Below, in pieces: positions 1 to 29,264 of a stretch of 31,198 nucleotides of DNA (position 1 is the stretch's first letter; each line of letters opens with the position of its first letter). The notes under the pieces are model-generated. The model searched no databases and had not been told where the DNA came from. It saw only the letters and a list, made by a program, of their open reading frames with translations. The stretch is taken from IMG/VR virus record IMGVR_UViG_3300048031_000124, positions 1-31,198 of that record. One strand, 5' to 3'. The stretch is from a virus. The position numbers and the translations under genes are program-made.

Positions 1-1643
1 GAACTCACAGATGCTCTAGCATTAGCAGTGTAAATCGCTGGATACCTAGCATTGTAAGTAAACGGTGTTTGAGAGTTACTTGGTGACTGAGCGTTAGCAG
101 GGTATCTTGCGTTGTAAGTAAACGGTGATTGTGCGTTACTAGGACTCTGAGCGTTAGCAGGATACCTAGCATTGTAAGTAAACGGCGATTGAGCATTACT
201 AGGTGACTGAGCGTTAGCAGGGTATCTAGCGTTAGCAATATATGGTTGCTGTGCTGATACTGGGTTTCTGTAACCAGCAGGTTGTCTAGCATTCGCAATG
301 TACGGAGTTTGACCATTCACTGGGTTTCTATACGTACTAGGTTGTCTGTTCTGATACGTAAATGGTACTCGATATCCTACAGGGTTTCTATAAGTGAACG
401 GTGACCTATTTTGATACGTAAATGGTACTTGATATCCTACAGGGTTTCTATATGTAAATGGAGACCTGTTTTGGTACGTAAATGGTTGTTGTCCGTTAAC
501 TGGGCTTCTGTATGTAAATGGAGACCTGTTCTGATACGTGAACGGTGTTCTACCTTGTCGGGCGTATGTGTTTGGTTGTCTAGCGTTAGCAATATAAGGC
601 GTTTGAGCATTCGCAATATATGGATACGGTTGTTGAGCATTCGCAATATATGGAGTCTGACTATTAGCAATATACGGATATGGTTGTTGTGCGTTCGCAA
701 TGTACGGATTTTGACCATTCACTGGGTTTCTATACGTAAATGGTTGTCTAGCATTCGCAATATAAGGCGTTTGAGCATTTACAGGGTTTCTATACGTAAA
801 TGGTTGTCTAGCATTAGCGATATATGGCGTTTGAGCATTTACAGGGTTTCTGTATGTAAATGGTTGTCTAGCATTAGCGATATATGGTTGTTGTGCAGAA
901 ACAGGATTTCTATATCCAGCAGGTTGTCTTGCCTGAGCAATGTAAGGTGTCTGTGAACTTGATGGATTCTGATAAATAGCAGGTTGTCTAGCGTTAGCAA
1001 TATAAGGCGTTTGAGCATTAGCAATATATGGATACGGTTGCTGGGCATTCGCAATATAAGGCGTTTGACTATTTGCTATATAAGGATACGGTTGTTGAGC
1101 GTTAGCGATATATGGGGTCTGACTATTAGCAATGTACGGATACGGTTGCTGAGCGTTAGCGATATAAGGCGTTTGAGCATTAACTGGGTTCCTATATGTA
1201 AATGGTGACCTGTTCTGATACGTAAATGGTGTCTGTGCATTTACAGGATTCCTATATGTAAAAGGAGCCCTATGTTGATATGTAAATGGAGTTTGACTAT
1301 TTGCTATATAAGGATACGGTTGTTGAGCGTTAGCGATATAAGGCGTCTGATTATTGGCAATGTACGGATACGGTTGCTGAGCGTTAGCGATATAAGGCGT
1401 CTGTGCATTAGCAATGTAAGGATACGGTTGCTGTGCATTCGCAATATATGGGGTCTGACTATTAGCAATGTATGGGTAAGGTTGTTGTACAGACTGTTGA
1501 CCCGATGCATTATTCCACCCTGTAGGTGTCTTAACGTAAATTTGGTCTACCGCTGACCATGTGGTTGAACCTGTTTTAACCCAAGCACCTTGGGTAGAAT
1601 TCCAGCCCTGCGGTGTTTTTACCTTCTGTGAACCTGATGCCAT
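1..1643 (-). CDS. Pro/Gln/Tyr/Asn-rich repeat protein (partial, C-terminus beyond left edge)
   Basis: Reading on the minus strand from the ATG at 1643, all 547 visible codons are open, and the frame runs off the left edge without a stop. Residues 1-48 form a small non-repetitive head with four Trp and two copies of a VKTPxGWN motif. From about residue 49 the protein is pure repeat: 18-residue units (QQPYPYIANA + QTPYIANA), 20-residue units (QTPFTYQNRS + PFTYRNPVNA) and, nearest the edge, 20-residue units with NARYPANAQSPSN. The repeat has essentially no Asp, Glu, Cys, Leu or Lys. An AAGG lies about 10 nt before the ATG as a possible ribosome binding site. It follows the fibre cluster and a terminator, and shares its repeats with the proteins at 9041-11771. 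I infer a virion fibre or adhesive component; the function is not recognised. Confidence 0.85.
   Translation of the reverse strand, partial: MASGSQKVKTPQGWNSTQGAWVKTGSTTWSAVDQIYVKTPTGWNNASGQQSVQQPYPYIANSQTPYIANAQQPYPYIANAQTPYIANAQQPYPYIANNQTPYIANAQQPYPYIANSQTPFTYQHRAPFTYRNPVNAQTPFTYQNRSPFTYRNPVNAQTPYIANAQQPYPYIANSQTPYIANAQQPYPYIANSQTPYIANAQQPYPYIANAQTPYIANARQPAIYQNPSSSQTPYIAQARQPAGYRNPVSAQQPYIANARQPFTYRNPVNAQTPYIANARQPFTYRNPVNAQTPYIANARQPFTYRNPVNGQNPYIANAQQPYPYIANSQTPYIANAQQPYPYIANAQTPYIANARQPNTYARQGRTPFTYQNRSPFTYRSPVNGQQPFTYQNRSPFTYRNPVGYQVPFTYQNRSPFTYRNPVGYRVPFTYQNRQPSTYRNPVNGQTPYIANARQPAGYRNPVSAQQPYIANARYPANAQSPSNAQSPFTYNARYPANAQSPSNAQSPFTYNARYPANAQSPSNSQTPFTYNARYPAIYTANARASVS
54..233. repeat. 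60-bp tandem repeat, three copies
   Basis: Three consecutive 60-bp units (54-113, 114-173, 174-233) differ at only a few positions. Each encodes one 20-residue unit containing SPFTYNARYPANA (reverse strand). The array lies inside the repeat protein and is in frame, so copy-number change would not break the reading frame. Confidence 0.9.
721..888. repeat. 60-bp tandem repeat, nearly three copies
   Basis: Units at 721-780, 781-840 and 841-888 are nearly identical and encode the 20-residue unit QTPYIANARQPFTYRNPVNA on the reverse strand. These are in-frame repeats within the partial gene at 1-1643. Confidence 0.9.
1021..1190. repeat. 54-bp tandem repeat encoding 18-residue units
   Basis: A GATACGGTTG core recurs every 54 bp here, encoding alternating PYPYIAN and TPYIAN half-units on the reverse strand. 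Copies differ mostly at synonymous positions, so the protein repeat is better conserved than the DNA repeat. Confidence 0.85.
1300..1490. repeat. 54-bp tandem repeat, second block
   Basis: The core (GATACGGTTG or a close variant) recurs near 1312, 1366, 1420 and 1474, a strict 54-bp spacing. It is separated from the first 54-bp block by 20-residue units of the PFTYRNPVNA type. It encodes the first repeats after the N-terminal head of the protein. Confidence 0.85.
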
Positions 1644-1660
1644 TTATATTATACCTTAAA

Positions 1661-1691
1661 AATTAAAAAAATATACTCTATTAAGAGTATA
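1661..1691 (-). terminator. Rho-independent terminator overlapping the end of the 852-residue gene
   Basis: TATACTCT (1672-1679) and AGAGTATA (1684-1691) form an 8-bp stem with a 4-nt loop. On the minus strand the stem is followed directly by seven T. The upstream half of the stem contains the last codons of the fibre gene ending at 1681, and its stop codon lies in the loop. Confidence 0.8.
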
Positions 1692-4239
1692 AAATCCACA
1701 TATCACCAACCGCACCATCACTACTTGAAGGTGCTGATGTGTTCTGATATATGTTTCTCACATATCCACCTGAATTACTAGCGTTAGTTGTAGTAATTGT
1801 TCCTAGTGTTGCGTTTGAACCACTCTCGTATTTAGTGTTCAAAGCAGTCTGTAATCCGTCAACATTTGCAATCGTATGATTATGTGAATCATCTGCAACT
1901 GCAGCTGAAATTGTGATATTACCAGTTCCATCAAATGATGCAGAACCTGATAAGTCTCCACCCAATGCAATTGTTCTTGCAGTAGTTAACTTAGCAGCAC
2001 TAGATGCAGTAGAAGCGTTTCCTGTCAATGAACCTTCAAAAGAAGATGCCTTAACATTATACGAACCAAATGTCCATTCGTCTTCTGACTCGTCCCATGT
2101 CAATGAAACATTAGCAGAAGTTCCTCTTTCAACTTCAATACCTGAATCCTGTGAAGGTGTTCCAGTAACATCATTGTTAAGTGTAATGATATTATCAGAT
2201 ACATTAAGTGTTGCAGTGTTAACAGTTGTTGTAGTTCCGTTAACAGTCAAATCGCCTGAAAGTGTAAGGTCTGCAAAAGACACATCACTAGTTGTTGAAA
2301 CTGCCTGACCAATACTGAATTGACCACCACTGTATGCAACACCAGTACCAGCACTTAAATGAGCACGTGTCTCAGCAGCACTAGGGCCTGTATATGTTAT
2401 TACACCAGTACCACTATTATATGCAAGTGAACCATCTCCACCTGAATCGGTGACTGATAATTTACCTCTTACTTGTGAATCACTAATACCTGAATATGTA
2501 ATTGCACCAGTTGAAGAGTTGTATGATAGTGAACCATCTCCAGCGTTATCAGTAACTGAGATTAGACCTCTTACTTCTGCATCTGTTCTTTCTGTGAATG
2601 AGAAAGCACCAGTTCCACTGTTATATGATAAATCACCACCAGCAGATACTAATCCTCTGATATTTGCATCTGATAAACCAGCAAGTGTAAGTGTTCCAGC
2701 AGTATCGTCATATGTTGATGTGATGTTTGTTCCACCAACTATCAAACCATTTACGATATCTTCGATTTCTTCTTCAGTTTTTCCTGAAGAGTTAATTGTA
2801 AGTGTTCCAGCAGTATCGTCATATGATACTGTGATGTTAGTTCCTGCTGTTGCCATACTACCAACAACATCTTGCACTCTTTCTGTTGTATGATAAAGGT
2901 TACCATTTTCTGATACATCACCAGTGTCTAGTGTGACTGCACTACCTAAGGCAGTTGCACTTCCGTTAACTGTGATTGAACTATTAGCAAGTTTTGCGTT
3001 TGATATAGAACCCGCCAACATAGCGTCTGTAATACCTAATGCTTTTACTTGAAGTGTGTCTGAACTTGTTTCGATTGAACTACCGTCAACATTTACTGCA
3101 AGAGATAATGCACCTGTAGTTCCACCGCCTGATAAACCGTCTCCAGCAGTGACACTTTCGATATCACCAGCATCGTTTGTGAAACTAATTACACCAGTTG
3201 AGTTATCGTATGATAAATCTCCACTTGCTGATATTAAACCTCTAACATGTGATGTTGATACTGCAAGGTCGATTGCACCATCGTTTGCATCGTCATAAGA
3301 TGCAGTAAGACCTGTATGTGTACCATTGGTTGCAATCTGAGCACCAACTGTATCTTGAATATTTTCGTAAGGTACTCTAATTTCTAGTGTTCCAGCTGCA
3401 TCGTCATAAGTTGTTGCAACGTTTACACCAGCAGTAACTAAAGCACTAACTCTATCGTCAACTCTTTCATTTGTGAAAAATAGATTTCCGTTTTCTGCAA
3501 AATCACCAGTGTCTAAATTTAATGTCCCACCTAATGATAATGAATTAGAATTTATTGTTACACTTGAATTGGATAGTTTATTATTATCAACAGAACCCGC
3601 CAACATGGCATTAGTAATACCACCTGCTTTGACTCTTAATGTGTCTGAATCTGTTTCGATTGAACTGTCATCTACTTGGACAGCAAGTGATACATTACCA
3701 CTTGTACCGCCACCTGTAAGACCATCACCAGCAGTAACACCTGTAATATCACCAACTTGTCCGTTAAGTGTAAGTGTTCCAGCAGCATCATCGTATGTAG
3801 ATGTAAGTCCTGTTCCAGCAACAATTAAAGAATTAACTCTGTCGTCAACTCTTTCGTTTGTGAAGTATAGGTTTGAGCCTTCTGATAAATCACCTGTATC
3901 GAATGCAGACATATTGACTGCAATGTCATCTGCGTTTACAGTAATACCTGTACCAGCACCAATGTTTAATGTTGCATCACCTGAAGTTGCAGTACCAGTT
4001 AAACCAGCACCAGCATTTACTCCTGTGATATCTCCAACTTGTCCTGTGATTGTTAATGTGTTAGCAGAATCATCATATGATAATCCAATACCAGCACCAG
4101 CAGTTAGTAACGAAGCAACTCTATCGTCAATAGTCTCACTACCAATAGCAGCACCAGTAATAGAACCACTAGAGTCTATAACCTCTACGCCATTGACGTT
4201 TAAACCATTCTTAATATTAAAATTCTTTTCACCAGCCAT
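1681..4239 (-). CDS. Large modular tail-fibre-like protein
   Basis: This 852-residue protein has no transmembrane segment or enzyme motif. Residues 1-40 carry an NGLNVNGVEVIDSSG head related to the 76-residue protein just upstream. The body repeats modules of the forms GDITGVTAGDGLTGGG, LYFTNERVDDRV and TYDDAAGTLTL, typical of marine T4-like phage fibres. At about residues 663-735 lies an LTVNGTTTTVN module that also occurs in the proteins at 6656 and 4553. The C-terminus ends in an aromatic GDMWILYS, comparable with GHLWFVI in the 847-residue protein. The start overlaps the preceding stop by one base (TAATG), with GGAGG upstream, so translation is probably coupled. A role as a fibre or fibre-like virion protein is inferred from modules and position. 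Confidence 0.85.
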   Translation of the reverse strand: MAGEKNFNIKNGLNVNGVEVIDSSGSITGAAIGSETIDDRVASLLTAGAGIGLSYDDSANTLTITGQVGDITGVNAGAGLTGTATSGDATLNIGAGTGITVNADDIAVNMSAFDTGDLSEGSNLYFTNERVDDRVNSLIVAGTGLTSTYDDAAGTLTLNGQVGDITGVTAGDGLTGGGTSGNVSLAVQVDDSSIETDSDTLRVKAGGITNAMLAGSVDNNKLSNSSVTINSNSLSLGGTLNLDTGDFAENGNLFFTNERVDDRVSALVTAGVNVATTYDDAAGTLEIRVPYENIQDTVGAQIATNGTHTGLTASYDDANDGAIDLAVSTSHVRGLISASGDLSYDNSTGVISFTNDAGDIESVTAGDGLSGGGTTGALSLAVNVDGSSIETSSDTLQVKALGITDAMLAGSISNAKLANSSITVNGSATALGSAVTLDTGDVSENGNLYHTTERVQDVVGSMATAGTNITVSYDDTAGTLTINSSGKTEEEIEDIVNGLIVGGTNITSTYDDTAGTLTLAGLSDANIRGLVSAGGDLSYNSGTGAFSFTERTDAEVRGLISVTDNAGDGSLSYNSSTGAITYSGISDSQVRGKLSVTDSGGDGSLAYNSGTGVITYTGPSAAETRAHLSAGTGVAYSGGQFSIGQAVSTTSDVSFADLTLSGDLTVNGTTTTVNTATLNVSDNIITLNNDVTGTPSQDSGIEVERGTSANVSLTWDESEDEWTFGSYNVKASSFEGSLTGNASTASSAAKLTTARTIALGGDLSGSASFDGTGNITISAAVADDSHNHTIANVDGLQTALNTKYESGSNATLGTITTTNASNSGGYVRNIYQNTSAPSSSDGAVGDMWILYS

Positions 4240-4552: not shown

Positions 4553-5296
4553 TTAAACTTTTAAAATATTTCTACTAAATTTGAATACTGTTGAATTTGC
4601 TGAAGCGGGGATGACTCTAAGTCTAACACTACCCGAGGAAGTGTCAACAGATAGGGTAAATAACGAAGTTCCTGTTGTTATATCACCGTATTGTGAAAAG
4701 TAAGCATTACTTCCATCATGTATTACCATAACTTCTGTTGCATGATAATTACTTCCACTAGTTGCCTGTAAATGATACTTTCCACTTCTGTATGCTAGTA
4801 GTGAAAACGTATCTAATGTAGCTTCAGTTGTTGAAGTTGTAGTGACTGAATCATTAGCATCTACTCTTAGATTACCTAAACTCAGTGGCCCAACTGCTGT
4901 CAACTGACCTGTCGCTTCTATATCACCAGCTTTAAAATCTGCAAATGCAAATCCTGAACCAGTAGCGTCAACAGTATTGCCTGGTTCTAATTCTAATCCG
5001 TCAAACAACTTCCATGTTGAGTCAGAAGCATCTCTGAATAAACCAGTATATTCAGTTGCGCCATCTGACAATCCATCATCATAGTTTCCATAAAGACCAA
5101 TATCGATTAAGTCACTTGAAGTGTTCCCACTTGCAAGTTCAAACATAGAATCTGTAACAGAAACTGTTGTTGAATCAATTGTAAAACTAGTGCCCGAAAC
5201 AGTTAGATTTCCAGTGACCGTTAAGTCCCCATCTACTGTCGAGTTATCTTGGGATGCTATCCCTAGGTCTGTGTAGAACTTTGATTTCGTTGCCAT
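4553..5296 (-). CDS. Fibre-like structural protein with shared C-terminal domain (247 residues)
   Basis: Residues about 20-100 hold an LTVTGNLTVSGTSFTIDSTTV module related to modules in the proteins at 1681 and 6656. Residues about 150-247 are a domain shared with the two upstream proteins (136 and 274 residues), recognisable by tEVMVIHDGSNAYFSQYG and a VRLRVIPAS motif near the end. No enzyme motif is visible. A perfect late promoter box sits 5 nt before the ATG, after a strong terminator, so this gene begins a new transcription unit, possibly leaderless. Likely a virion protein; the exact site is unknown. Confidence 0.85.
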   Translation of the reverse strand: MATKSKFYTDLGIASQDNSTVDGDLTVTGNLTVSGTSFTIDSTTVSVTDSMFELASGNTSSDLIDIGLYGNYDDGLSDGATEYTGLFRDASDSTWKLFDGLELEPGNTVDATGSGFAFADFKAGDIEATGQLTAVGPLSLGNLRVDANDSVTTTSTTEATLDTFSLLAYRSGKYHLQATSGSNYHATEVMVIHDGSNAYFSQYGDITTGTSLFTLSVDTSSGSVRLRVIPASANSTVFKFSRNILKV

Positions 5297-5368: not shown

Positions 5369-5779
5369 TTAAGCGTCTACCGTTGTCCTATCAAATTTGA
5401 TAACTGTAGATGAACTACTTGCTGGAGTTACTTTCAATCTTACATCTGTACCACTAATGTCAGCATCAAACGATGCAAGGTTAGATGATTTCAATGTTCC
5501 ATATTGAGTTAGAGTCACTGCTGAACCGTCATGTACTACGACAATTTCAGTAGAGTGAAAATCTGAACCCGAAGACATAGCAACAACATATCTTGCAGCC
5601 CTATACGTTGCATGAGCAAACGTATCGATAGCAACTTCTGTTACTGCAGTAGTGGTAGAACCACCCTGTGTATGTCCATTAGAACGAATATCCTTTGTAG
5701 TAGTAATAACATCATTACTGACATCAAACTGTATACCACGGATTAACTCGGCAAGTTCGAAACCTCTTGTTTTAGCCAT
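5369..5779 (-). CDS. Small structural protein with shared C-terminal domain (136 residues)
   Basis: A short head (about 40 residues, RGFELAELIRGIQFDVSN) is followed by the same roughly 95-residue domain found at the C-termini of the 247- and 274-residue neighbours. Landmarks are tEIVVVHDGSAVTLTQYG and VRLKVTPASSSSTVIKF. It is thus nearly a minimal version of that domain. The start is supported by GGGAGG about 9 nt upstream, and the gene begins 13 nt after the previous stop. A strong terminator follows. It is likely a virion protein; no catalytic motif is seen. Confidence 0.85.
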   Translation of the reverse strand: MAKTRGFELAELIRGIQFDVSNDVITTTKDIRSNGHTQGGSTTTAVTEVAIDTFAHATYRAARYVVAMSSGSDFHSTEIVVVHDGSAVTLTQYGTLKSSNLASFDADISGTDVRLKVTPASSSSTVIKFDRTTVDA

Positions 5780-5792
5780 TTCTTATGCCTCC

Positions 5793-6617
5793 CTATTGCA
5801 TTCTAATTTGGAACGTTTTAAATGTAGTATTCGTATTAGCAGGTGTTACTAGCAATCTCATGTTATTACTATTCATATCACTAGAAAGTGTGAATAGAGA
5901 TGAACCTGAGTATGCATCACCATACTGAACGAAGTATACATTCGAACCGTCATTGATTAAAAGAACCTCAGCAGCGTGAGTACCACCAGTAGCATGTGTT
6001 GCAACAATTACATGTTTAATTGCAATTACTGCTTTTGCGTTAGAAGTCAATACTTGGTCAGCAGTCGTTGCTGTTAAAGCAACTGTTGTGAAGAAACCTT
6101 GTACAAGGTTTGATATTGAAGTCTGTGCAACTACTTGTAATACATCTCCCGCCACAGCGTTCGCCTGTAATGTGATAACTGAAGTACTAGTTGTAGCATA
6201 GTCATCACCACTCACTAATTTAACACCATTCAGATAGACTTGTTCTAGTCCAACAGTGTAAGCAAGTGTTACACCATTATCATCTGAACCTGAAATTACG
6301 GTTGTGTTACCAGTTATATCATACTTGAAAGTTGTTACACCAGTGCTTGGTGCATTTACGAAACCTAAAGTTCCACTTCCATTTGTTGATAATAACTGTC
6401 CACTAGAACCGTCTGCAGTTGGGAATGTTAAAGCATCATTGATAGTTAGAGAAGTTGGGTTAGACCCAACCTCTACAACAGCAGCAGAACCATCATTCTT
6501 CTCAGTGTAAAACCTACCGTGATAGGTATTTACCGCCAATTCACCAAGTGCAAGGTCACTTACGCCTGGTAATGCGTTCTGAGTAGAACTTCTTTTAAAT
6601 TGGATTACTGTTGCCAT
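5793..6617 (-). CDS. Fibre-like structural protein (274 residues)
   Basis: The N-terminus (MATVIQFKRSS, then SDLALGELAVNT and FYTEKNDGS) is paralogous to the 544-residue protein just upstream and typical of marine phage fibre proteins. A PTADGSSGQLLSTNGSG motif follows at about residues 62-80. Residues about 100-180 contain a VYLNGVKL...GDVLQVVA module also seen in the 847- and 1179-residue proteins. Residues about 180-274 are the domain shared with the next two genes (INDGSNVYFVQYG, MRLLVTPA). AGGAG precedes the ATG. It is likely part of the host-contact apparatus; this is inferred. Confidence 0.85.
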   Translation of the reverse strand: MATVIQFKRSSTQNALPGVSDLALGELAVNTYHGRFYTEKNDGSAAVVEVGSNPTSLTINDALTFPTADGSSGQLLSTNGSGTLGFVNAPSTGVTTFKYDITGNTTVISGSDDNGVTLAYTVGLEQVYLNGVKLVSGDDYATTSTSVITLQANAVAGDVLQVVAQTSISNLVQGFFTTVALTATTADQVLTSNAKAVIAIKHVIVATHATGGTHAAEVLLINDGSNVYFVQYGDAYSGSSLFTLSSDMNSNNMRLLVTPANTNTTFKTFQIRMQ

Positions 6618-9040: not shown

Positions 9041-10159
9041 TTATGTTTTACTAAACTGTGCAGTTGGAACAGATTGGTGAATATTCTCAACAGTGCCACT
9101 ATCATTGACGTACACTTTATTTAGTTTCTTTATTTGGTTTCCATCATTTACATATATCCCTTTAACTTTAGCGATCGGCCCAATACTTCTAGTTGTACTA
9201 TAATCTTGTTGATATATGTAAGGTTGTTGTACTTGATATGCAACTTGATACGTAACTTGGTATGTAGTGGGTTGTCTAGCATTAGCAATATAAGGTTGCT
9301 GTGCATTCGCAATATACGGATAAGGTTGTTGTGTTATCCTAATAACAGGGGTGTTATATGCCCTCTGTAAAATATAAGGTGTCTGTGCATTAGCAATGTA
9401 AGGTGTTTGTGCATTTACAGGATTCCTATATGTAAATGGATTCCTATTCTGATACGTAAATGGTGTCTGAGCATTAGCAACTGCAGTACTAGGTTGTCTA
9501 TGTTGATAGGTGAACGGTGTCTGTGCCTCAGCAGTATATGGATATGTTGTTATCGCTGGTTGCTGATGATTATAATTCCTCGTCCTTATTACAGGGTATG
9601 TAGTAGGTTGTCTAGCATTAGCAATATAAGGTTGTCTAGCTTCTCTAGTATATGTAAACGGTGTTTGTCCTTGTCTAGCATATGTAAATGGATGTCTATA
9701 AGACACCTGTGTTTGTGCAACACCTTGTCTAGAATATGTTGTCGGGTGTCGATATGCAACTTGGTATGTAGCAGGTTGTCTATGTTGATAAGTAGACGGT
9801 TGCTGTGAAGTAGTCGGACTCTGATGCTGATATGTAGAAGGTTGTTGGTTTATATACGGAGCATTTTGCTGTATAGTTACCTGTATTTCTTTCTGTGCTG
9901 TTCTTGGATACGTAAATGGACTCTGATAAGTCGTCTGTGCTTGAGCATTTGCAGTATATGGTTGAGTACCGATAACAGGTGTTCTGTAACTAGCAGGGTG
10001 TTGATACGTAACTTGATAATCTTGTTGTCCGATAGCAGGATATGAATACGTAGCTGGTTGTTGTGCTATAGCAGGTACAGGTCTTCTTCCTTCAGTTTCC
10101 ACACTCAACGTTTGTTGGAATGTGAAAGGGTTATTTTGTTGTGTAAATCCTGTGGCCAT
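9041..10159 (-). CDS. Pro/Gln/Tyr/Asn-rich repeat protein (372 residues)
   Basis: Residues about 30-320 are low-complexity repeats of [QR]xPxTYxxx half-units with interspersed PYIANA segments. The pattern is close to the partial protein at 1-1643 and the 536-residue protein upstream, but less regular. Residues about 325-372 form a non-repeat tail with two tandem copies of a [GK][IV]YVND motif, the only charged and acidic part. The start follows the previous stop closely (GAGGTT upstream), so the two repeat genes are co-transcribed. The repeat is rich in Tyr, Pro, Gln and Arg and nearly free of Asp, Glu, Cys and Lys. An extended or adhesive virion component is inferred; the family is not recognised. 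Confidence 0.85.
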   Translation of the reverse strand: MATGFTQQNNPFTFQQTLSVETEGRRPVPAIAQQPATYSYPAIGQQDYQVTYQHPASYRTPVIGTQPYTANAQAQTTYQSPFTYPRTAQKEIQVTIQQNAPYINQQPSTYQHQSPTTSQQPSTYQHRQPATYQVAYRHPTTYSRQGVAQTQVSYRHPFTYARQGQTPFTYTREARQPYIANARQPTTYPVIRTRNYNHQQPAITTYPYTAEAQTPFTYQHRQPSTAVANAQTPFTYQNRNPFTYRNPVNAQTPYIANAQTPYILQRAYNTPVIRITQQPYPYIANAQQPYIANARQPTTYQVTYQVAYQVQQPYIYQQDYSTTRSIGPIAKVKGIYVNDGNQIKKLNKVYVNDSGTVENIHQSVPTAQFSKT

Positions 10160-10160
10160 C

Positions 10161-11771
10161 TTAATAGAACCTCAATCGTTTAGGGGCATTAACCACTGTG
10201 AACCCCTGATGAGCTGATGGTAGTCCTCCACCAACAATCCAGTTCACCCCTTGAATATTATATACTCCGCCAGATGGAGACCCTGTATTGACCGCTTGCA
10301 TATATATCACTGGTATTCCACTAATGTGATTCCAAGTATTACTCTGATAACTCCAGTAAGCATATTCTATCCTACTCCACTGACCAGTAGCATTTAATCT
10401 CATAGGTTGACTTGGTTTTAATTGTATATGATTATTCACAGCTGGGTCATGTGAGTACAACCCAGTCCAAGTCATTGTTCCACCCATTCTTTGAGTTGTC
10501 TTCCAAGATGTTGGTACGCCTTGTGTTCCTTGACCCGCTAAAACTTGGGCGGGTACCCCCGAGAATGGGGGTAAGAAAGCACCTGTTGCGCCAGATTGAG
10601 GGGAACCACTGTTAGTATTACCATCAACACCTGCTGGAGCATAGAATGACCCAAGTCTTGAGCCCATGGCAGCAAATTCGTCTGTTCCAACCAAACCACC
10701 ATAACTATACTGTTGGTGATTTCCTGGGCCATGGAAATATTCTCCAACTATAGGGTCGGGATACTGATAAGCGACCGCTAGTTGGTTTTGTCCTATAGCA
10801 GGAACTTGATTTGGTTGCTGATATATGTAAGGTTGTTGTATCGTGGTTTGATAACTTGCTTGGTAATTACCAGTCGCTGTATATATCACTGGTCTTTGAG
10901 CAATTGATTGTGTAGTGAACTGATATGTTGCTGGTTGTCTAAACCCATAATTACCTTGTATCTGAGCAATATAAGGTGATTGCGCTTGTACACTCGCCTG
11001 AGCGTTTGCTTGATATGTGTATTCTTGTATTGCTGGTTGTTGTGCAATAACTTGATATGTAGCATTTACCGCTGTTTGTCTATTTGCAATTGAAGGATTA
11101 GCATTATCAATCGTAGTTTGTCTATTTGCAATTACAGGATGTCTGTAAGACGCTGGTTGTTGAGCAGTGTTTTGTCTATTCGCAATGTACGGATATGTAT
11201 AAGGTTGCTGTGTTTGTGCTACATATTGTCCATTAGCAATGTATGGATACGGTTGCTGAGCATTAGCAGTATATTGATACGTTGTTTGATTGTTATACGT
11301 AAACGGTATCTGTTTATTTACTTGGTTTTGATAAGGTTGTTGTGCAATAACAGGATTCTGATACGGAATATTACCCTGTAGGTTATAGATACTAGGTTGT
11401 CTTGCATTAGCAATATACGGTGTTTGAATCTGATTTTGATATGTACTCGGTTGTCTTGCATTAGCAATATATGGTTGTCGACCATTCACTGGATTTCTAT
11501 ACGTACTAGGTTGCTGATTTACATAGGTAGAGGGTTGTCTACCTTGTCCAACATATGTAGCAGGAACTTGATGCTGATATGGTGTTGGCGTTCGTCCCTG
11601 TCTAGCATAGGTGAATGGACTCCTATTCTGATATGTAAAGGGTACTTGTTGATTGGCAGGTTGTCGAGCTATACGTTGTCTTATGACTGGTGCTGTACCA
11701 GTTGCAATAGCTTGTCCTTGATACGGTTGTTGTATCGTAGAGCCAATGTTTATATAAATTTCATCTGCCAT
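10161..11771 (-). CDS. Pro/Gln/Tyr/Asn-rich repeat protein with globular C-terminal domain (536 residues)
   Basis: The first residues contain EIYINIGSTI, then residues about 17-345 are repeats: PFTY, PYIANAR, QPSTY and PVIANRQ elements at irregular 8-14-residue spacing. From about residue 350 to the end lies a non-repeat domain rich in Gly, Trp, His and Tyr (FHGPGNHQQYSYGG, WTGLYSHDP, WNHISGIPVIYMQ, APKRLRFY). That layout, a flexible or fibrous stalk with a distal globular head, suits a receptor-binding or capping protein, though this is inference. The ATG is one base downstream of the preceding stop codon (TGATATG), with no obvious ribosome binding site of its own. Confidence 0.85.
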   Translation of the reverse strand: MADEIYINIGSTIQQPYQGQAIATGTAPVIRQRIARQPANQQVPFTYQNRSPFTYARQGRTPTPYQHQVPATYVGQGRQPSTYVNQQPSTYRNPVNGRQPYIANARQPSTYQNQIQTPYIANARQPSIYNLQGNIPYQNPVIAQQPYQNQVNKQIPFTYNNQTTYQYTANAQQPYPYIANGQYVAQTQQPYTYPYIANRQNTAQQPASYRHPVIANRQTTIDNANPSIANRQTAVNATYQVIAQQPAIQEYTYQANAQASVQAQSPYIAQIQGNYGFRQPATYQFTTQSIAQRPVIYTATGNYQASYQTTIQQPYIYQQPNQVPAIGQNQLAVAYQYPDPIVGEYFHGPGNHQQYSYGGLVGTDEFAAMGSRLGSFYAPAGVDGNTNSGSPQSGATGAFLPPFSGVPAQVLAGQGTQGVPTSWKTTQRMGGTMTWTGLYSHDPAVNNHIQLKPSQPMRLNATGQWSRIEYAYWSYQSNTWNHISGIPVIYMQAVNTGSPSGGVYNIQGVNWIVGGGLPSAHQGFTVVNAPKRLRFY

Positions 11772-11772
11772 A

Positions 11773-14316
11773 TCATATCACAAACCATAGATGACCACTA
11801 CTAGTACTTCCGACTGATGTAGGTGCGCTACTTGTTATTTCATAATCTAATGCCAAATCTATTCTCCCATCGGTAGTAGTGTTGTTACCACCGTCTGCGT
11901 TATCGTTATATGATAATTTGATACCATTATTATATGTAGGTGTTCCGTTTGAGACCTTTAATGTGTCTGCAACTCTATCGTCTGTGAAATATACAAAGTT
12001 AGCATCCTCACCTACAGAACTTGTACTTGTACTTTGGTCGCCTGGCGCCCAAGCAGAACCACTCCACACTAGTACCTGACCACTACTTGCACCACTACTA
12101 ACATTACTTAGGTCTTCTATACTAGCAAGACTAATTCTACCATCTGCTCTTGCATCTGCTCTAGCGTTCGTAAAGTACAGATTAGTCTCTTCAGTTATGC
12201 CTGAAGTTTTAAGTGTAATATCACTTGAACCATCGAATGATTGACCTGAAATAGTTCTTGCATTGGCAAGTGTAGTTGCTGTTCCAGCATTACCACTTGT
12301 GTCTTGATTACCACTAGCGTTTACGCCAGGTAAATCAATAGCAGCAGAACCATTAAATGACACTCCACCAATATTTCTTGCAGTTTCTAATATTGTAGCA
12401 CTGGCTGCATTACCACTTGTGTCTTGATTACCACTAGCGTTTACGCCTGGCAAGTCAATATTTGCAGTACCATCAAATGATACACCACCAAGTGTTCTTG
12501 CGGTCTCAAGTGCAGTAGCAGTAGATGCATTTCCAGTCAATTCACCATAGAAATCTTTTGCGTAGATTTTCCTCCATGTCTTACCATCAGCACCTAAATC
12601 ATAAGTCTCATGGTCATCTGGCATGATACCTGAATCGACATCAGCATTAAAAACAATATTGTCTGTATCTGCATCACCGAATGTTATATTACCGTTTGCA
12701 GTAATATTTCCAGTAGCAGTAATGTTACCACCGACATTTAAATTCTTTGCGATTGCAACACCACCATCAACAATCAAAGCACCACTTGACAAAGTTGTTG
12801 ATTGTGCAGTATTATTTAAATTTGTTTGACCAGTTACGTCTAGTGTACCACTCAAAGATGCATCACTTAAAGATGTAAGTCCTGTAACTCCAAGCGTTCC
12901 GCCAACAGAAGTATTTCCTGTAACTCCAAGTGTTCCGCCAAGAGAAGTATTTCCTGTAACTCCAAGTGTTCCGCCAACATGAGTATTCTTTGCAATTCCA
13001 AGACCGCCGTCAATTCTAACTGCACCTGTAGTAGTACTTGAAGACTGAGTAGTGCTATTAAAGTTAGTAATACCATTTACATCTAGTGTACTTGATAATG
13101 ATGTAGCACCTGTAACTCCTAAAGTTCCGCCTATTAATGCGTTAGTAGAGATGTCTGCACTACCGTTAAGGTCTAAATCACCATCGATTCTTGTTCCGTC
13201 TAATGTTGTAGCACCATCAACGTCCAACGTTCCTGTCATTGATGTATTACCAAGAACACCTAAATCTGCTCGTAATGTTGTGTTATTAAGAACGTCTAGT
13301 GTTGAATCGATATCTGTAGCACCATCAATGTTAACACTTCCACTTAATGTTGAGTTACCATCTACTTGTAGATTAGCAGCAAAGTCGACATTCCCACCGA
13401 CAAATAATTTCTTTTTGATTCCAACACCACCATCAACAATCAAAGCACCTGTTGAAGTACTTGAAGATTCTGTCGTGCTGTTTAAATTTGTTATACCAGT
13501 TACATCTAATGAACTAGATAATGTTGAAGCACCTTGAACACCAAATGTGCCTCCAACTGTTGTATTACCTGTGACACCAAGTGTACCACCAAACGTACCA
13601 GCATCGCCGACACTCAAGTCTCCAGTAAGTGTTGCATCAATACCAGCGTAATCACCACCAGTAATTGTAGCACCACTACCATCTGTAAGTGTTGGAGATG
13701 TTAATGTACCTCCAGTATGGACGGTTACATCACCATTGATTTTTGTTTTACCTTCTAACTGAATTTTGATATCAGAACTTTCACGAGAGGTTACCCTAGG
13801 GTCAACCTCACCGTTAATGATAACACCTTTTGAGTTATTATTATAGATATCACCTGTAGCAGTAGTAGACCAAAAACCTGTTGTTGAACCAGCGGCATCT
13901 GTTCCTAAGTATGAACCTGTGAATGAGAAGACGGTTACTTCATCGCCGACTGAAGCAGCAGACTGTAACTGAATTGAATTGTAAGTAGTTGCGTTAAGTA
14001 TACCAAATCCACCGATAGAATATTCACTAGAAAAGTTCTTTTGTATACCATTGACATACACTTGAACTCTATTAGCTTTAAATTCTAACTCGTGATTTGC
14101 AACATCATTACCACTAAACGTGGTTTGACCTGCTGTTGCAACGAAGCGATATTCTTGGAAAAAGAATGCTTTATCTTCAATACTATTAACTGCATCGACA
14201 AGAGTTTCTTGACTTTCTGTTCTCAGACCACTTGTGTCTCCCATATCCGAAGATACTTCATTGAAGACTTGTCTGAATGTTTCTATAGTACTGTATTGGT
14301 CTACTTGTTTAGCCAT
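11773..14316 (-). CDS. Long tail-fibre-like protein with N-terminal anchor and beta-repeat shaft (847 residues)
   Basis: Residues about 1-145 are a non-repetitive head; within it an ATAGQTTF...VQVYVNGIQ...GDEVTVF module occurs, shared with two other proteins here. Residues about 150-560 form the shaft, with GTLGVTGNTSVG 12-residue repeats and at least three longer units of the form LDVTGxTNLNST...GALIVDGGVGI. Then come LTGNASTA...LETAR modules and LYFTNARADARADGR, ending in GHLWFVI. The design matches trimeric fibres of marine T4-like phages. The start overlaps the preceding gene by 8 bp. It is a probable baseplate-attached fibre; which T4 protein it replaces cannot be told. Confidence 0.85.
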   Translation of the reverse strand: MAKQVDQYSTIETFRQVFNEVSSDMGDTSGLRTESQETLVDAVNSIEDKAFFFQEYRFVATAGQTTFSGNDVANHELEFKANRVQVYVNGIQKNFSSEYSIGGFGILNATTYNSIQLQSAASVGDEVTVFSFTGSYLGTDAAGSTTGFWSTTATGDIYNNNSKGVIINGEVDPRVTSRESSDIKIQLEGKTKINGDVTVHTGGTLTSPTLTDGSGATITGGDYAGIDATLTGDLSVGDAGTFGGTLGVTGNTTVGGTFGVQGASTLSSSLDVTGITNLNSTTESSSTSTGALIVDGGVGIKKKLFVGGNVDFAANLQVDGNSTLSGSVNIDGATDIDSTLDVLNNTTLRADLGVLGNTSMTGTLDVDGATTLDGTRIDGDLDLNGSADISTNALIGGTLGVTGATSLSSTLDVNGITNFNSTTQSSSTTTGAVRIDGGLGIAKNTHVGGTLGVTGNTSLGGTLGVTGNTSVGGTLGVTGLTSLSDASLSGTLDVTGQTNLNNTAQSTTLSSGALIVDGGVAIAKNLNVGGNITATGNITANGNITFGDADTDNIVFNADVDSGIMPDDHETYDLGADGKTWRKIYAKDFYGELTGNASTATALETARTLGGVSFDGTANIDLPGVNASGNQDTSGNAASATILETARNIGGVSFNGSAAIDLPGVNASGNQDTSGNAGTATTLANARTISGQSFDGSSDITLKTSGITEETNLYFTNARADARADGRISLASIEDLSNVSSGASSGQVLVWSGSAWAPGDQSTSTSSVGEDANFVYFTDDRVADTLKVSNGTPTYNNGIKLSYNDNADGGNNTTTDGRIDLALDYEITSSAPTSVGSTSSGHLWFVI
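12885..12995. repeat. 36-bp tandem repeat in the fibre shaft
   Basis: Three near-identical 36-bp units, each including CTCCAAGTGTTCCGCC, encode the 12-residue unit GTLGVTGNTSVG on the reverse strand. The repeat is in frame and lies within the 847-residue fibre gene. Confidence 0.85.
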
Positions 14317-14521
14317 GAATTTTATCTACCAGTTGTGTTAATAATGTTTTAATATCTGAAACATCTTTCTTTAAATTATTTATCTCTTCTACTTGTTTTT
14401 TGAAGGTTTCTTTCCTAAGTTTTTGCGCCCTATAAGCATTAATATCAGTATTCACCACAGCAGTAGATTCCGAATCTCTTGCTAATGATGAATGACCTTC
14501 TACTTTCCAATATTCAGTCAC
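14309..14521 (-). CDS. Small coiled-coil protein (70 residues, GTG start preferred)
   Basis: The protein begins TEYWKVEGHSSLARDSES after the initiator and ends in a heptad-like segment rich in Lys, Glu and Leu (EEINNLKKDVSDIKTLLTQL), a likely short coiled coil. An upstream ATG at 14539 is in frame, but it lacks a ribosome binding site and would overlap the 2254-residue gene by 19 bp. The GTG at 14521 overlaps that stop codon by one base (TAGTG) and has AGGA 8 nt upstream, so I prefer it. The reading frame overlaps the next start by 8 bp. It sits between two large structural genes and may be a small linker or assembly protein; function unknown. Confidence 0.7.
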   Translation of the reverse strand: MTEYWKVEGHSSLARDSESTAVVNTDINAYRAQKLRKETFKKQVEEINNLKKDVSDIKTLLTQLVDKIHG

Positions 14522-17500
14522 TATGCAAGTCCTAAACATCTAAGAGCAGATACCATAGGAATTACTGAAGTGTTTGTTCCCTTACCTACAATCTTAACTG
14601 AGAAAGCACTGAACTCTGGCAAGTCTTCGACTGACCATTCGTTTTCTTTAAAGTTTCTAGCATCCGATTCTACTACAGTGTTTGGCGAACCATCACCATT
14701 AAAGTATGTCCACCCCAAATCATCAAACGGTGTTGAGTCATCATTTTTCAACACCTTATATAGTACTTCAACACCAGTAGTTTCGGGTTTAAATACATCT
14801 GCAACAACTCTTAGAGATGTAGCAGGAGTTTTTAGATTGACTTTTCTAGTGATATAAACCATTGCGTTGTTATCACCATCGGGGTCTGTTGACGGGATGT
14901 AATTAGTAACAGGACTTCCAGGCTCTCCAGGCACGTCTGCAGAAGTATCAATGTTGTTAATTCTATTCAATATCGCAATAGCACCAATTGTACCCACGTC
15001 TATGACTGGTGATATATTAGGTGTTGCTGATTGTAGTTGCAACGTACATGTAAAGGATTTCGTACTTGCCATTTCATTTTGTTCATTGATTGGCGATGCA
15101 ACAACACTTGATGTTCCAAAGTATGCGTTATCATTTAGTGTAATGAAATCTTGTGTTGAGTTTTTATCATATGCGTTCCCACCTTGGTTGTAACCTTCAG
15201 GCGTGTCCATAGGTGTTCTAGTTACTGCAGCCAAAACTCTTGTCAATGGCGGAATAACATTCGGAATCATTGTGTGTATAGAATCGTAATAGTAGTTTCT
15301 TGTTGCAAAAGAATTTGCTCCACCACCTACTGTAGATTCCAAGGCACCATAACTTGCTTTTAAATCATATGATGATAGGTCGGGTACTATTGTGAATGCA
15401 TCGATTTCTATATTACTAATAGTACTATATCCAAGAGTTTTATTCAACTCTTCGAGTGGGAACCCACCTAGAGTATCACCAACCGCATCGATAACTATTG
15501 TACAAGACGCTGTTCCACCATCAAAGTTTGTGAATGTTAAAGTGTTACCAACAGCATGTCCTTGGCCAGGGTTCGTAATAGTAGAACTAGTGATGTTATT
15601 ATTTACAACTACAATTTCTACAGAACAACCAGTACCACTACCAGTTGTACTTGTTTGTTGTACAGTATATGTACCAGCACTTGGTGTTCCCGATACACTA
15701 GGTGTTGCAATTCGTAATGCACCATTTAATGCATTACCTGTTAATCCACTTAGAATAACATTTGAATCTGACTTATACATACCATGTGAGTAGTTATATA
15801 CCTTCACATAGTTTTTACCAATGTATGTTTCAATCGGGTTCGATTGTAGTTTTGTAGTTGGTAATGCATCATTTTCAAATACCAATTTTGGTGTTTTTGA
15901 TTGATTAAATACAGCCCTTCTGATTGTAAACTTGAGGTCATCTTCCTGTGTAGCAGTCCATGTTGATGCGTTCTGTGATAAGAACAATGAACCAGCATAT
16001 GGTTGTCCAGCAATTGTCTGACCTGTTGCAATATCTTTTTCGCCCATTCTAGATATGAAAGCCTCATACTCATTTGAGTTAGAGTAAACTACGAAACAAT
16101 ACTCAACATCTTGTTGAAGGTATACTGGTGACTCAAAAGTAAATGATGTCGCCTTGCTTCCATCTTGTGATGTGGCCACAGCAGATGGGTTCAATGTTAC
16201 CACTGAGAAAGGCAATACTATTTGGCCAGGATAACCATTAACCATGTTTCTAATTTCAACAGAAACTGGGATATGTGTATCTTTAGACTGGAAGAATACA
16301 TCAATTCCAGTTGCAAAGGTACCACCTGATTGTTCTACTAGGAACGATTGAGCAAGTGGGTCACCCCATCCTCTTTCCATTTCGGGGAATTGAGGTTGTG
16401 TAAATCGACCTGTGAAATCTCGCCAACCATCGAACTCTTCCAAAACTGGTTCTGGCGGTATTATTGGAACAGGTGGAACCAAAACAGGTGGCGGAGTTGT
16501 ATCTTCCGGCAATGGAATGAAAACAGGCGGTGATTGAATTACTGATATAACAGGAACTTCAACCTCCACGATTCTTTCAATAATAACTTCTTCTATTAAA
16601 ATTTGTGGTGGAAGTTCAATGTAAACTTCTCTAATAGGTGGTATTTCGGGAATAGGTACTGGTGGTGCAACAGTATCCCAAGGCAAGACATTCGTCCTTT
16701 CGCCAGGTTTTGTAATCTGTCTTTCACCAGCTGTTCTTTCACGAATAACTCTACCATTTCTTGTAGATGTAATTTCAGTTTGAGTCGATGTTAAATGACC
16801 CTGAGCCTGATACATACCACTACCGTGTGAATTAGGTGATGATATATTATTGTAACTTGAAGTAACTCTTAATTCTCTTTGACCAGTAGGGAATTTACCG
16901 CCAGGCAAAAAGAAGTTCGCCTTCAGTTCACCATTTTTATCTGTCTTTGGAATTGATGCAAGTGAGACTGAACCATTATGTGAGTATACAGCAGTACTAG
17001 GTGCGATGAAACTATCTATTCTTTCGTTATCAAAGAAGAAATAATGGAATGTATTTGGTTTTAAGTTTGTACAATGTATCGCAATAGTTCTAGCACGCAT
17101 GAATGGTATAAGTGTTACACTTACAACTCTGTCATTTCTTGTTTCTACAAAGTCTTCAACAACACTTGTTGATACACCAGTTCTTGTTTGTGTTTCTACA
17201 GTCTCTGTAATCTCTCTTGTTACCTGAAATCCTGAAGTCCATCTACCATGTTGTGTTGGGTCTCCATTCCAAGAACCATTTGAAGTTGCTTGTACTTCAG
17301 TAGCAACAGTTTCGGGTTTACCCGCCCATGTAGTCTGCCATTCGTTCCAAACGGTTCCCATAGCATTTTTATTTTCAGACACAAGTGCATCGAAGTTACC
17401 TTCTCTATTAATTCTTACTTCTGGCAATTGGTCTCTGTCTTGCCATATATCTGTTTCGGGTGTTAACTTGACATTACCAAAGAAACTGAATACGTGATAT

Positions 17501-20500
17501 GGGTTGACATTGATATGTCTAGAGGACTTATCATTTTGTGCTAAATTGACATTTGTGTATGGTAAGGTAATTAAATCCCCTGTCTTCTGATAATCTGAAG
17601 AAAGAGCAGTGTTTAAAGATATATCAAAGAACTGTGAGAAGTTCTTAGGTCTCATAGCACCAAGTTCAGTGTCAATAGCAACGTTATAGTCGGGATGGTT
17701 AACATCTCCAACTCTGTGTCCTTTAAAGTTATCTACTAAAAATCCTGATTTAAATCTATCGAAACCATCGGAATCTAGTATCTGTTTTGTTTGTGTGTCT
17801 TTTTCTAATAGAGAAAGAGATGTAATTCTTTCTAAGTTAGTCACACGGCTATTAATCCTACCGATGTCTTTCATCGTATATCTACGATGGTCGTGTGACC
17901 TTACTTTAACATTTTTTAAACTAGCAGTATAAGCAGGAATCTCTAGTTCGAATAACTCAATAGCATCATCTATACCTTTTGGTTTAGTTGGTGATAGTGA
18001 AGGTATCCCTACTGCAGTTTGGAATGTGCCTGATTTGTGTAGATATACTTTATCGATTCTACCTACATAGAATTTTATGTCACCAGTTACACTTGAGCCT
18101 GGAACTGGGGAATCAGTTGTGATTGCATGTGTTTGCGTAATGCCATCTCTTGAGTCACCAAAGTTTCTACCTGTATCATAACCAAACGGAGCAAATACAG
18201 CACCAGTTGTATTATTTGATAAATCAATTGCGTTGGTTGGAGTAGATGCATTGTTTATTTTAAAATTAGAAGTTCCAAGAATCTGTCCAGCAACTGGTCT
18301 AAAGTCAATACAATCTGAGAGTTCGAATGTTCCATCGGGTTCTAAACCACCTAAGTCTATTCTATTGGGGGAATATACTGGTATGTCATCATAGTCGATT
18401 GACCTATATGATTCAACATCAAAATATTCTCCAGCACCAGCAGAAAAATAATCGAAACAAATAAGTAGTGGGCCGTTAGGAGAAGGTTCTCCAGTTTTTC
18501 TTGTTAGTTTTCCAAGGTCATAGTACCCATCTCTTTGACCATTGTCAAAGAAGTATCTACTCTTAATATCTTCTGAACCTTGATGTACGTTTGATATAGT
18601 AACAGATGCACCTGATGATGCGCCAACAATTACCTCACTCTCAACAAATGAACCACTAACCATTCTGTAATGAGATATAGCACCACTACCAGCATAGTAT
18701 ACTAATATTGCACGTGCATTTGATGTCTGTCCAACCAAAGTTTCGTATTGTGTAAATGTTCCAGTAACTGTACCAAAACTCGCATTCGGCATAACTGGTG
18801 CAGTTCCACCTTCGTATATTGCATGAATCTTATGAACGTCAGCAACACCTAGTGTAATTTCTTTATCATCATATGCAGTTCCATAAAAACCATTAGCACT
18901 TCTAGGTTGAGTGACTTTAAGCAATCTTGATTTGTTTAGTGTTTTGGAACGAGCTTTTGGCGAAGTCAACAATACTGTAGATGTAACTTTAAGAATCGCA
19001 CCACTATTGTTTGCTAGTGTACATGTTAACTGATTACCAGTCACATTTGGACTTAGGTTTTCGATGTCTAGTAAATCACCAGCATCGAATGCGTTACTAT
19101 CTGTAGATGCTTTTACTACTGCGATTGAGAAGTTATCTGTATTTCTTGCTTCGAAGGTTGCTTGTGAACCAGCACTAATAGTGAATGCACCACTGTTTAT
19201 TGTTACTATGTGTTGTCTTCTTACTTTAACATTCTTACCAGCATGTTCAGCAACCCAATCTCTAGGCCATGCGTAAATAGCTGCAGTTTGGTCTTGTTTA
19301 TGAATTCTAACTCTACGTCTTGTTACACTACCGTTTGAGATTGGAGATACGCCAGAGGTGGCGGTACATTGGGCATTGTTAGCATCTGTAACAGTTTGAA
19401 TAACTCTTTGGGTACCAGTACCGTCAATGATGATGTCACCTTCTTTAAGTTCGGTTGCGAATCTTGAACCAAATCCTGTTAGTGCGCCGCCTCCCGATAA
19501 TGAAATAGAACCCGATAAAGTATTGTCGGCATCTGCAACAGCATCACCAACGAATGTTTGTAAAGTATCATCTTTTGAAGCTTGTGTAACCCCACGAGTA
19601 CGGTCTACGTTATAGGTTCTTGTCTCTGTGATTGTTCCTGTTGCACTTGTCTTACCTTTAGTGGATATAGTATCACCAGTATAGAACCCACCAGTAACAT
19701 CGTGAATATACACAGTTGTGTTACTTGTGTTGTATGCAACAATACCTGTACCAACAATTTGACCTGCTGAGTTTGTAGATACTATTTGGTCACCTTCAGT
19801 AAATGTACCAGTAAATGTATTTGCTTTAACTTCAGTATACATTTTGATATCAAATAAATATATGTTCCATTGAGAAGCTTGGTTGTATTCGCCACTTGAA
19901 TCATCGACACCACTATGTAAGTCTATATTTCTAATACGTGCTTTACCAATATGCTTTCCAGCAAAACTTGGGGAACTAGCATTAACGTTTGTTGAATTCT
20001 GTACAGTATCATACAAGTCCATATCACCATATCTTTCTTGACTTGCATTTGTGCCTTCATTACCAAATTCTGGCAATCCATGTGCATTTGTGACTCTTAA
20101 AATATTACCTAATCTGACTGGTGTATTAGAACCAGCGAGTGTGACTGTTGACCTCGCTTTTGCAAAGTTTAGAGATGTTGTACCAATTTTATCAATCTCA
20201 AAACCTTTGACATACGCTTTACCTGGCGATATTTGCATAACAAATCTGTCTGCATCACCACCATATTGTTCAGTATAAAAACCGTTGTTTGTTGTGTTGT
20301 TTAAATGTTCTCTAAGACTATGTGTAAATTGATTGACAACAAAATCACCGTTAGCATCAAATGTTCTTCGTGCTAATGTTTGTTCAATCTGACCATACTG
20401 CGGTCTAGTGATTTTACTTTCGATGATACCACCATTAACTTTTACAAGTTCAATAAAGTCAGCATCATCTGTTGTGTCTAATTTAAATTTGGAGAGGACA

Positions 20501-28841: not shown

Positions 28842-29264
28842 TTATCTTACCCTCGTTACTGCGATTTTTACGGATTGGTCTCTTACTCCATTTTTAATAC
28901 TATATGATACTGATACATCTAGTGTATTGGTATCGAATTTATCTTCATCTATACGAATTGTTACATTCTCAACTCTTGGTTCGAAGGTTGTTATAGTTTT
29001 AGATAACGATTCCCCAACTCTTCGGATTCCTCTATCTGTATTTAATTCAAATAGTTTACTTGTTAGATTACCACCAAAGCCTGGTTTGAATGGTCTTTCA
29101 TATGCATTTGTTAGAACAATATTTCTTACTGCCCTTTTAATAGATGCAACATCTGTTTTCCTAGTCACATCTCCAGTAACTGGATGTGGTTGAAACAATA
29201 AATCCAAATCAGAATATAGATTTGAAGTTGCTACGGTTGAAGCATTGTTTTTTACATCTTTCAT
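28842..29264 (-). CDS. 25: Baseplate wedge protein gp25
   Basis: At 140 residues it is about the size of T4 gp25 (132). The family features are visible: AVRNIVLTNAYERPF with PGFGGNL at about 45-66, LSKTI near 87-91 and the EPR motif at about 95-97 followed by VENVTIRIDE. The EPR motif of gp25/TssE proteins helps start sheath assembly. In T4 gene 25 lies in a different cluster; here it is next to gp6, as in marine relatives. A perfect late box is 5 nt before the ATG and no ribosome binding site lies between them. Confidence 0.92.
   Translation of the reverse strand: MKDVKNNASTVATSNLYSDLDLLFQPHPVTGDVTRKTDVASIKRAVRNIVLTNAYERPFKPGFGGNLTSKLFELNTDRGIRRVGESLSKTITTFEPRVENVTIRIDEDKFDTNTLDVSVSYSIKNGVRDQSVKIAVTRVR

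Follow-up and report, generated by a model that had tools for sequence, protein, structure and literature searches.

The window, by which we mean the whole 31,198-nucleotide stretch analyzed here (positions 1 to 31,198 of IMG/VR virus record IMGVR_UViG_3300048031_000124), covers part of the genome of a T4-like marine phage. Its baseplate genes lie on the minus strand and encode a gp5-like hub (Gp5_OB; 29290 to 30609) and the wedge proteins gp25 (28842 to 29264), gp6 (26966 to 28840), and gp8 (21330 to 22811), with gp6 finding its best isolate matches in Melnitz, Mosig, and HTVC008M (37 to 42%). Downstream on the same strand are a 2254-codon DUF4815 protein (14521 to 21285), which takes the label VrlC by position, as in HTVC008M; an 847-codon tail fiber (11773 to 14316; PHROGs phrog_6722, E 1e-48); genes D (10161 to 11771) and C (9041 to 10159); further genes, the last of them encoding an 852-codon protein (1681 to 4239) whose similarity to 'Phage tail repeat like' is weak (16.4 bits, cut-off 27); and, directly after it, gene A (3 to 1643), the main subject of this analysis. 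For pelagimyophages, one study (PMC7029224) describes a variable 'host recognition cluster' that follows VrlC and includes tail fibers, and gene A is likewise encoded in the tail and host-recognition region, as expected of a tail fiber. The 847-codon tail fiber has tandem repeats of its own (120 bp at 12287 to 12535 and 36 bp at 12880 to 12987). Three adjacent genes at 4553 to 5296, 5369 to 5779, and 5793 to 6617 share, by eye, a similar end domain (..EVMVIHDGS.....QYG...), and appear to form a small group of paralogs encoding virion-type proteins.

Gene A (P0001) is read on the minus strand from position 1643 and stays open for 547 codons to the left edge of the window, with no stop codon, just as the first-pass annotation had described it. 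Its first ~50 residues (1494 to 1643) lack the shaft repeats and form an N-domain with VKTPxGW repeats that is conserved in class A relatives, and residues 55 to 543 (15 to 1481) form a Pro/Tyr shaft. The 54-bp and 60-bp arrays noted earlier are recovered by Tandem Repeats Finder between positions 40 and 1484. Their description as 18- or 20-residue units holds in that successive prolines are spaced 2, 8, and 8 residues apart (18) or 6, 6, and 8 apart (20), with one 10-residue segment departing from these patterns, but it is not the deepest rule in the protein. Nor is the constant unit length proposed at the same time the invariant feature: lengths shift in even steps, and a two-residue phase stays. 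Genes C and D are two further carriers of the same repeats in the window, not mentioned in the first-pass annotation; gene C ends in a KVKG..YVNDSG..IHQ domain and gene D in a nonrepeat tip.

From residue 55 of gene A on, all 75 prolines fall in one two-residue phase, and each of the 74 distances between successive prolines is an even number (2, 6, 8, or 10). The phase opposite to proline is occupied by Tyr (63/63), Phe (17/17), Val (15/15), and Ala (69/70), the phase of proline itself by Ile (27/27) and Arg (31/32), and Asn, Gln, Ser, and Thr occur in both phases. When the residues of gene A were shuffled 10,000 times, no more than 54 of the 75 prolines shared a phase. Even Pro-Pro spacings also prevail in gene C (35/36) and gene D (34/34). 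Such alternation between two faces is typical of extended beta strands; the period of a polyproline helix is three residues. A strict two-residue phase kept over ~490 residues reads as a design rule for a fiber.

The same pattern extends through the family. For relatives of class A, the phase opposite to proline takes 3089 of 3119 Tyr, 957 of 985 Phe, and 2958 of 3148 Ala. It also recurs in 32 later-found shafts, distinct sequences outside the proteins in which the rule was noticed (13 of 45 that overlapped or equalled earlier ones were set aside); here the prolines are single-phase by choice of the stretch, and the other residues, which were not so chosen, fall opposite to proline in 932 of 936 cases for Tyr, 362 of 370 for Phe, 163 of 168 for Val, and 804 of 892 for Ala, with 416 of 463 Ile in phase with it. 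Family-wide, distinct Pro-to-Pro segments span 2 to 14 residues, and 1407 of 1544 are even despite their differing lengths, with 137 odd, so that the rule is strong but not absolute. Longest single-phase proline runs are 25 to 73 in the 53 distinct shafts from the first set of cassette loci described below and 27 to 68 in the 32 new ones from the second; no other frame of the window or of seven isolate stretches has a run longer than 10. Across 289 pairs, 1024 of 1073 gaps within shafts are even versus 27 of 69 outside, which is not independent evidence, because the shaft is defined by single-phase prolines, favoring even gaps, and the pairs overlap. Proteins in which A and its partner B (see below) are fused change proline phase once, with about half of their prolines in the longest single-phase run; for the fused form, this argues against a single phase from end to end.

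No established family had been recognized for gene A, and searches of Pfam, PHROG, and NCBIfam agree in giving no tail-fiber or other credible match. Cementoin (PF10511) scores 29.1 bits against P0001 (cut-off 27) over 27 repeat residues, which we read as probable chance similarity because three relatives score below the 27-bit cut-off (L131, 20.3; L126, 20.7; L197, 24.1). A collagen-like fiber was considered and rejected, as there are 8 Gly in 497 residues and no Gly-X-Y triplets, and a PDB sequence search with P0001 returned DNA polymerase II only, at E 0.15, a chance match. The first-pass annotation had suggested either a repeating structural coil or a fibrous protein. The fibrous alternative is favored by the tail-region location and by the layout of N-domain, shaft, and tip, whereas a monomeric coil is not backed by AlphaFold: for full-length relative L126 with 20 homologues, mean pLDDT was 31.7 (~30 in the shaft) with no secondary structure in the shaft, although the alignment was noisy, and monomer prediction thus gives no confident fold.

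In IMG/VR, 235 stretches encode a relative and 421 encode a relative of the glycosyltransferase that lies downstream. Searches of 50,697 phage isolate records turned up no relative, in a set from which records very near the window were possibly left out. The search filter is not the cause of this negative, since a local tblastn control with P0001 and the default filter recovered nine divergent family loci (E 6e-58 to 1e-137; weakest two, 1e-38 to 1e-44). Stretches of ~42 kb from each of HTVC008M, Mosig, and Melnitz contain no such repeats, and a literature search with the repeat peptide strings matched no paper. A single locus comes from a bacterial genome, a Flavobacteriales MAG contig (L206), and is perhaps a binned phage. 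The sequence to the left of the window, which the first-pass annotation had recommended obtaining, was available through a relative (L127) that is 99.8% identical to the window across 9607 bases and continues past the left edge; there, gene A continues with 20-residue units and a 145-residue tip, followed by an 86-codon open reading frame and then a second shaft gene, B. In relative L126, full-length gene A has 719 codons. A 60-bp unit near the shaft end (window 46 to 233) differs in copy number among the near-identical phages L126, L100, and L129, whose gene A lengths of 719, 739, and 735 codons reflect either real length variation or an assembly effect.

Sorted by their ends, the repeat proteins comprise 81 of class A, 73 of class B, 19 of class C, and 19 of class D, with 8 cut. 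Relatives show a layout of N-domain, shaft, and exchangeable C-terminal tip; the tip of the window's own gene A lies past the edge and, like the cassette described below, was read in relatives. Complete A and D proteins number 89, and 53 of them carry a tail of at least 100 amino acids; these tails form clusters of 25, 11, 8, and 5 plus 4 singletons; the remaining complete proteins have short tails, many of them Gly-rich. Globular, Gly-rich, and Hint/intein-like types are swapped among relatives, and the cluster of 25 consists of Hint-like tips plus a few non-Hint tails. In phage L067, the tips of A (792 to 2333) and D (10238 to 11515) are 95% identical, as if copied between genes. A single protein combining the A N-domain with the B C-terminus is encoded in L206 (4811 to 5944) and at several loci among L357 to L376.

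Hint/intein profiles score above cut-off in L105 (PF14890, 45.1 versus 35.8), L076 (PF05203, 37.4 versus 32.1), and L182 (PF14623, 27.5 versus 27); L197 and L011 fall below the Hint profile cut-off, and L090 and L071 have no Hint match. A CFxAGT-type start, usually placed directly after a Gly run, occurs in 13 of the 89 complete proteins: at the C-termini of class A proteins in L007, L031, L061, L096, L099, L105, L115, L182, L187, L188, L195, and L197, and of a class D protein in L076. Nineteen of the 89 end in HN followed by a short tail that starts with G, A, F, M, I, or K. Because the Cys, Ser, or Thr of standard splicing never follows the terminal Asn in these 19 proteins, the tips may self-cleave rather than splice in the standard way.

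After A and B, on the same strand, follows a cassette of five genes in the order GT531, u196, Oxy283, p7084, and Oxy247. At 79 loci bearing A, GT531 and u196 are present in 77, and Oxy283, p7084, and Oxy247 in 76; at L175, L177, and L157 the sequence ends there, and L206 has no separate B. We also searched from the cassette, taking the best 80 of 421, best 80 of 315, and best 80 of 385 relatives. In the first set of loci (best 80 per search), all five genes occur in order in 140 of 149, with the other nine lacking leading genes only, and in the second (best 80 of the relatives; 11 of 80 loci seen earlier were left out), in 68 of 69. Of the loci with at least 700 bases available upstream, and hence testable, all 123 in the first set and all 58 in the second (best 80 per search) carry a shaft gene directly upstream of the cassette; 17 and 11 loci were too short, and nine in the first set have no GT gene. 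The 123 loci contain 53 distinct shafts, 11 of them new relative to the early proteins, and the 58 loci contain 45, with 32 new. These loci share ancestry and the same contigs recur between searches; proteins across them are ~41 to 67% identical. PF13640 matches number 1 to 8 in each of 18 contigs of these phages, and because 2OG oxygenases are so common here, a single such gene close to a fiber says little by itself; more weight falls on the constant order of the five genes. Away from any shaft, a GT531 homologue in isolate Mosig sits beside methyltransferase and sulfotransferase genes. In isolate cyanophage S-SCSM2R (L354, 202814 to 217413), a GT531-like gene lies among sugar-metabolism genes without a shaft, and two annotated 2OG oxygenases are found 4 to 6 kb beyond it.

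The cassette enzymes were read in relative L127. Oxy283 matches PF13640 (35.3 bits, cut-off 27) and, by profile, a prolyl 4-hydroxylase in the PDB (E 5e-4). Its H165, D167, H235, and R249 are invariant in 21 sequences, and we take these to be the HxD...H...R residues of 2OG-Fe(II) oxygenases. By family, Oxy283 is a prolyl-hydroxylase-like 2OG-Fe(II) oxygenase whose activity is predicted. Oxy247 matches PF13759 (70.6 bits, cut-off 27), its profile matches two uncharacterized PDB proteins, and H118, H120, H181, and R192 are invariant in 22 sequences. For GT531, a structure model (pLDDT 83) aligns over its C-domain (~298 to 531) with LgtC (Z 13.4, rmsd 3.3, 205 aligned) and glycogenin (Z 12.4, rmsd 3.2, 193 aligned), as well as with UGGT, LARGE1, and Skp1 galactosyltransferase (Z 11.8), and the DxD residues D387 and D389 are invariant in 22 sequences, in keeping with a GT-A/GT8 fold. 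Pfam Glyco_transf_8 matches 14 of 22 GT531 members weakly (E ≤0.01, best 6.8e-5), with no match for the L127 member. The model points to a GT8-fold glycosyltransferase, a shared fold being no proof of substrate. PDB profile searches gave nothing at E 0.1 for GT531 or p7084, and only E 0.61 or worse for u196. Relatives of p7084 (phrog_7084; L127, 15035 to 15979) occur in 47 halovirus records. The relative lies close to tail genes in two haloviruses, near tail fiber and adhesin genes in HCTV-8, and no 2OG oxygenase is annotated beside it in those two.

Gene A is probably the long shaft of a host-recognition fiber of uncultured ocean phages, and the fixed genes that neighbor it in relatives, apparently able to hydroxylate proteins and to add sugar to them, suggest that the fiber is chemically decorated. 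We propose that gene A would contribute three parts: an N-domain that is small and conserved; a long shaft, rich in Pro, Tyr, Gln, and Asn, with residues alternating strictly between two faces, beta-like and probably homo-oligomeric; and a C-terminal tip that can be replaced. The protein would work with its partner shaft protein B, encoded just downstream and part of one protein in some phages, the two forming host-recognition fibers in which the tip may bind the receptor. The two 2OG-Fe(II) oxygenases, one of them prolyl-4-hydroxylase-like, would hydroxylate Pro, Tyr, or Asn side chains of the shaft, GT531 would add sugar to hydroxylated residues or to Tyr/Ser/Thr, and the outcome would be a stiff, protease-resistant, sugar-coated fiber. 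We lean, by a little over an even chance, toward such a modular host-recognition fiber with its Pro/Tyr-rich shaft hydroxylated and glycosylated by its own operon. The phase, the modular layout, the gene linkage, and the enzyme families with their conserved catalytic residues are observations, from which placement in the virion, oligomerization, modification, and a receptor role of the tip are inferred. The fiber could also be real and unmodified, with the cassette acting elsewhere, on host envelope sugars or small molecules, and merely co-transcribed. We regard this as unlikely, if well short of negligible: the glycosyltransferase homologues of Mosig and S-SCSM2R among sugar-type genes with no shaft are in its favor, as are the abundance of 2OG oxygenases in these phages and the glycosyltransferases that, by the pelagimyophage study, fiber regions often hold (PMC7029224), but it does not readily explain why, in the best 80 per search, no testable cassette locus lacks a shaft upstream and the gene order stays the same despite the divergence of the proteins.

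Other readings concern the shaft itself. The 18/20-residue units and strict in-out alternation could describe a monomeric beta-solenoid with 18 to 20 residues per coil, which we consider improbable given the lack of shaft strands in the AlphaFold model, with its noisy alignment, and the differing lengths of some segments and of units family-wide. That the model looks disorder-like, together with the simple composition and the copy-number variation, might indicate a disordered low-complexity expansion free of structural constraint; retention of the phase across differing segment lengths, and in sequences outside the set that revealed it, leaves this hardly credible. It is also quite improbable that the repeat proteins operate outside the virion, in host-surface action or as a decoy, for their position among tail genes and their exchangeable tips point the other way, even if they match no known fiber family.

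The decorated fiber that we favor resembles the modular tail fibers of T4-like marine myoviruses (pelagimyophage and cyanomyophage) in its place in the genome and in combining a shaft with an exchangeable tip; it differs in that the gene A shaft matches no Pfam, PHROG, or NCBIfam tail-fiber model. In mussel foot proteins and plant extensins, short repeats of Pro and Tyr undergo hydroxylation, and those of extensins are glycosylated as well. We know of no strict two-residue phase in either, and the likeness to the shaft is in Pro/Tyr repeats only, with no homology claimed. The prolyl 4-hydroxylase of chlorella virus PBCV-1 reportedly acted on peptide substrates that included noncollagen proline-rich repeats, and we know of no linkage of its gene to a phased shaft. 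PBCV-1, for which the enzyme is on record (Eriksson 1999, as cited in a passage of PMC9301287), belongs to a different virus class from the tailed phages with the cassette, although both encode a prolyl hydroxylase or prolyl-hydroxylase-like gene. Mimivirus encodes collagen-like proteins and collagen-modifying enzymes, as stated in one report (PMC9546862), and likewise joins a virus-encoded fibrous repeat protein with modifying enzymes, putative ones in the phages described here; unlike mimivirus, the shaft has no Gly-X-Y, the enzyme families are others, and the virus is a tailed phage. Within the literature searched, on marine fibers, on glycosylated tails, and on fibers in connection with prolyl hydroxylase, oxygenases, or Hint, we did not find a description of a phased noncollagen shaft with a fixed hydroxylase-glycosyltransferase cassette.

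In the words of a passage from a 2022 Baltic Sea study, viral use of prolyl 4-hydroxylase 'remains cryptic' (PMC9301287). Marine phages carry many 2OG-Fe(II) oxygenase and prolyl-hydroxylase genes of puzzling purpose, and here such genes are tied to one candidate substrate. Because two oxygenases and a GT8-fold glycosyltransferase are linked to it gene for gene, their purpose is directly testable. It is a tentative proposal, somewhat below an even chance, that a widespread clade of uncultured ocean phages makes its host-recognition fibers with a new fibrous fold, a Pro/Tyr shaft of strict two-residue phase, and that a dedicated cassette of five genes first hydroxylates this shaft (on Pro or on Tyr/Asn) and then glycosylates it, making it a phage counterpart of the hydroxyproline-rich glycoproteins. 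If true, these phages would decorate their own fibers, with consequences for their host range, for masking, and for how stable they are in sea water.
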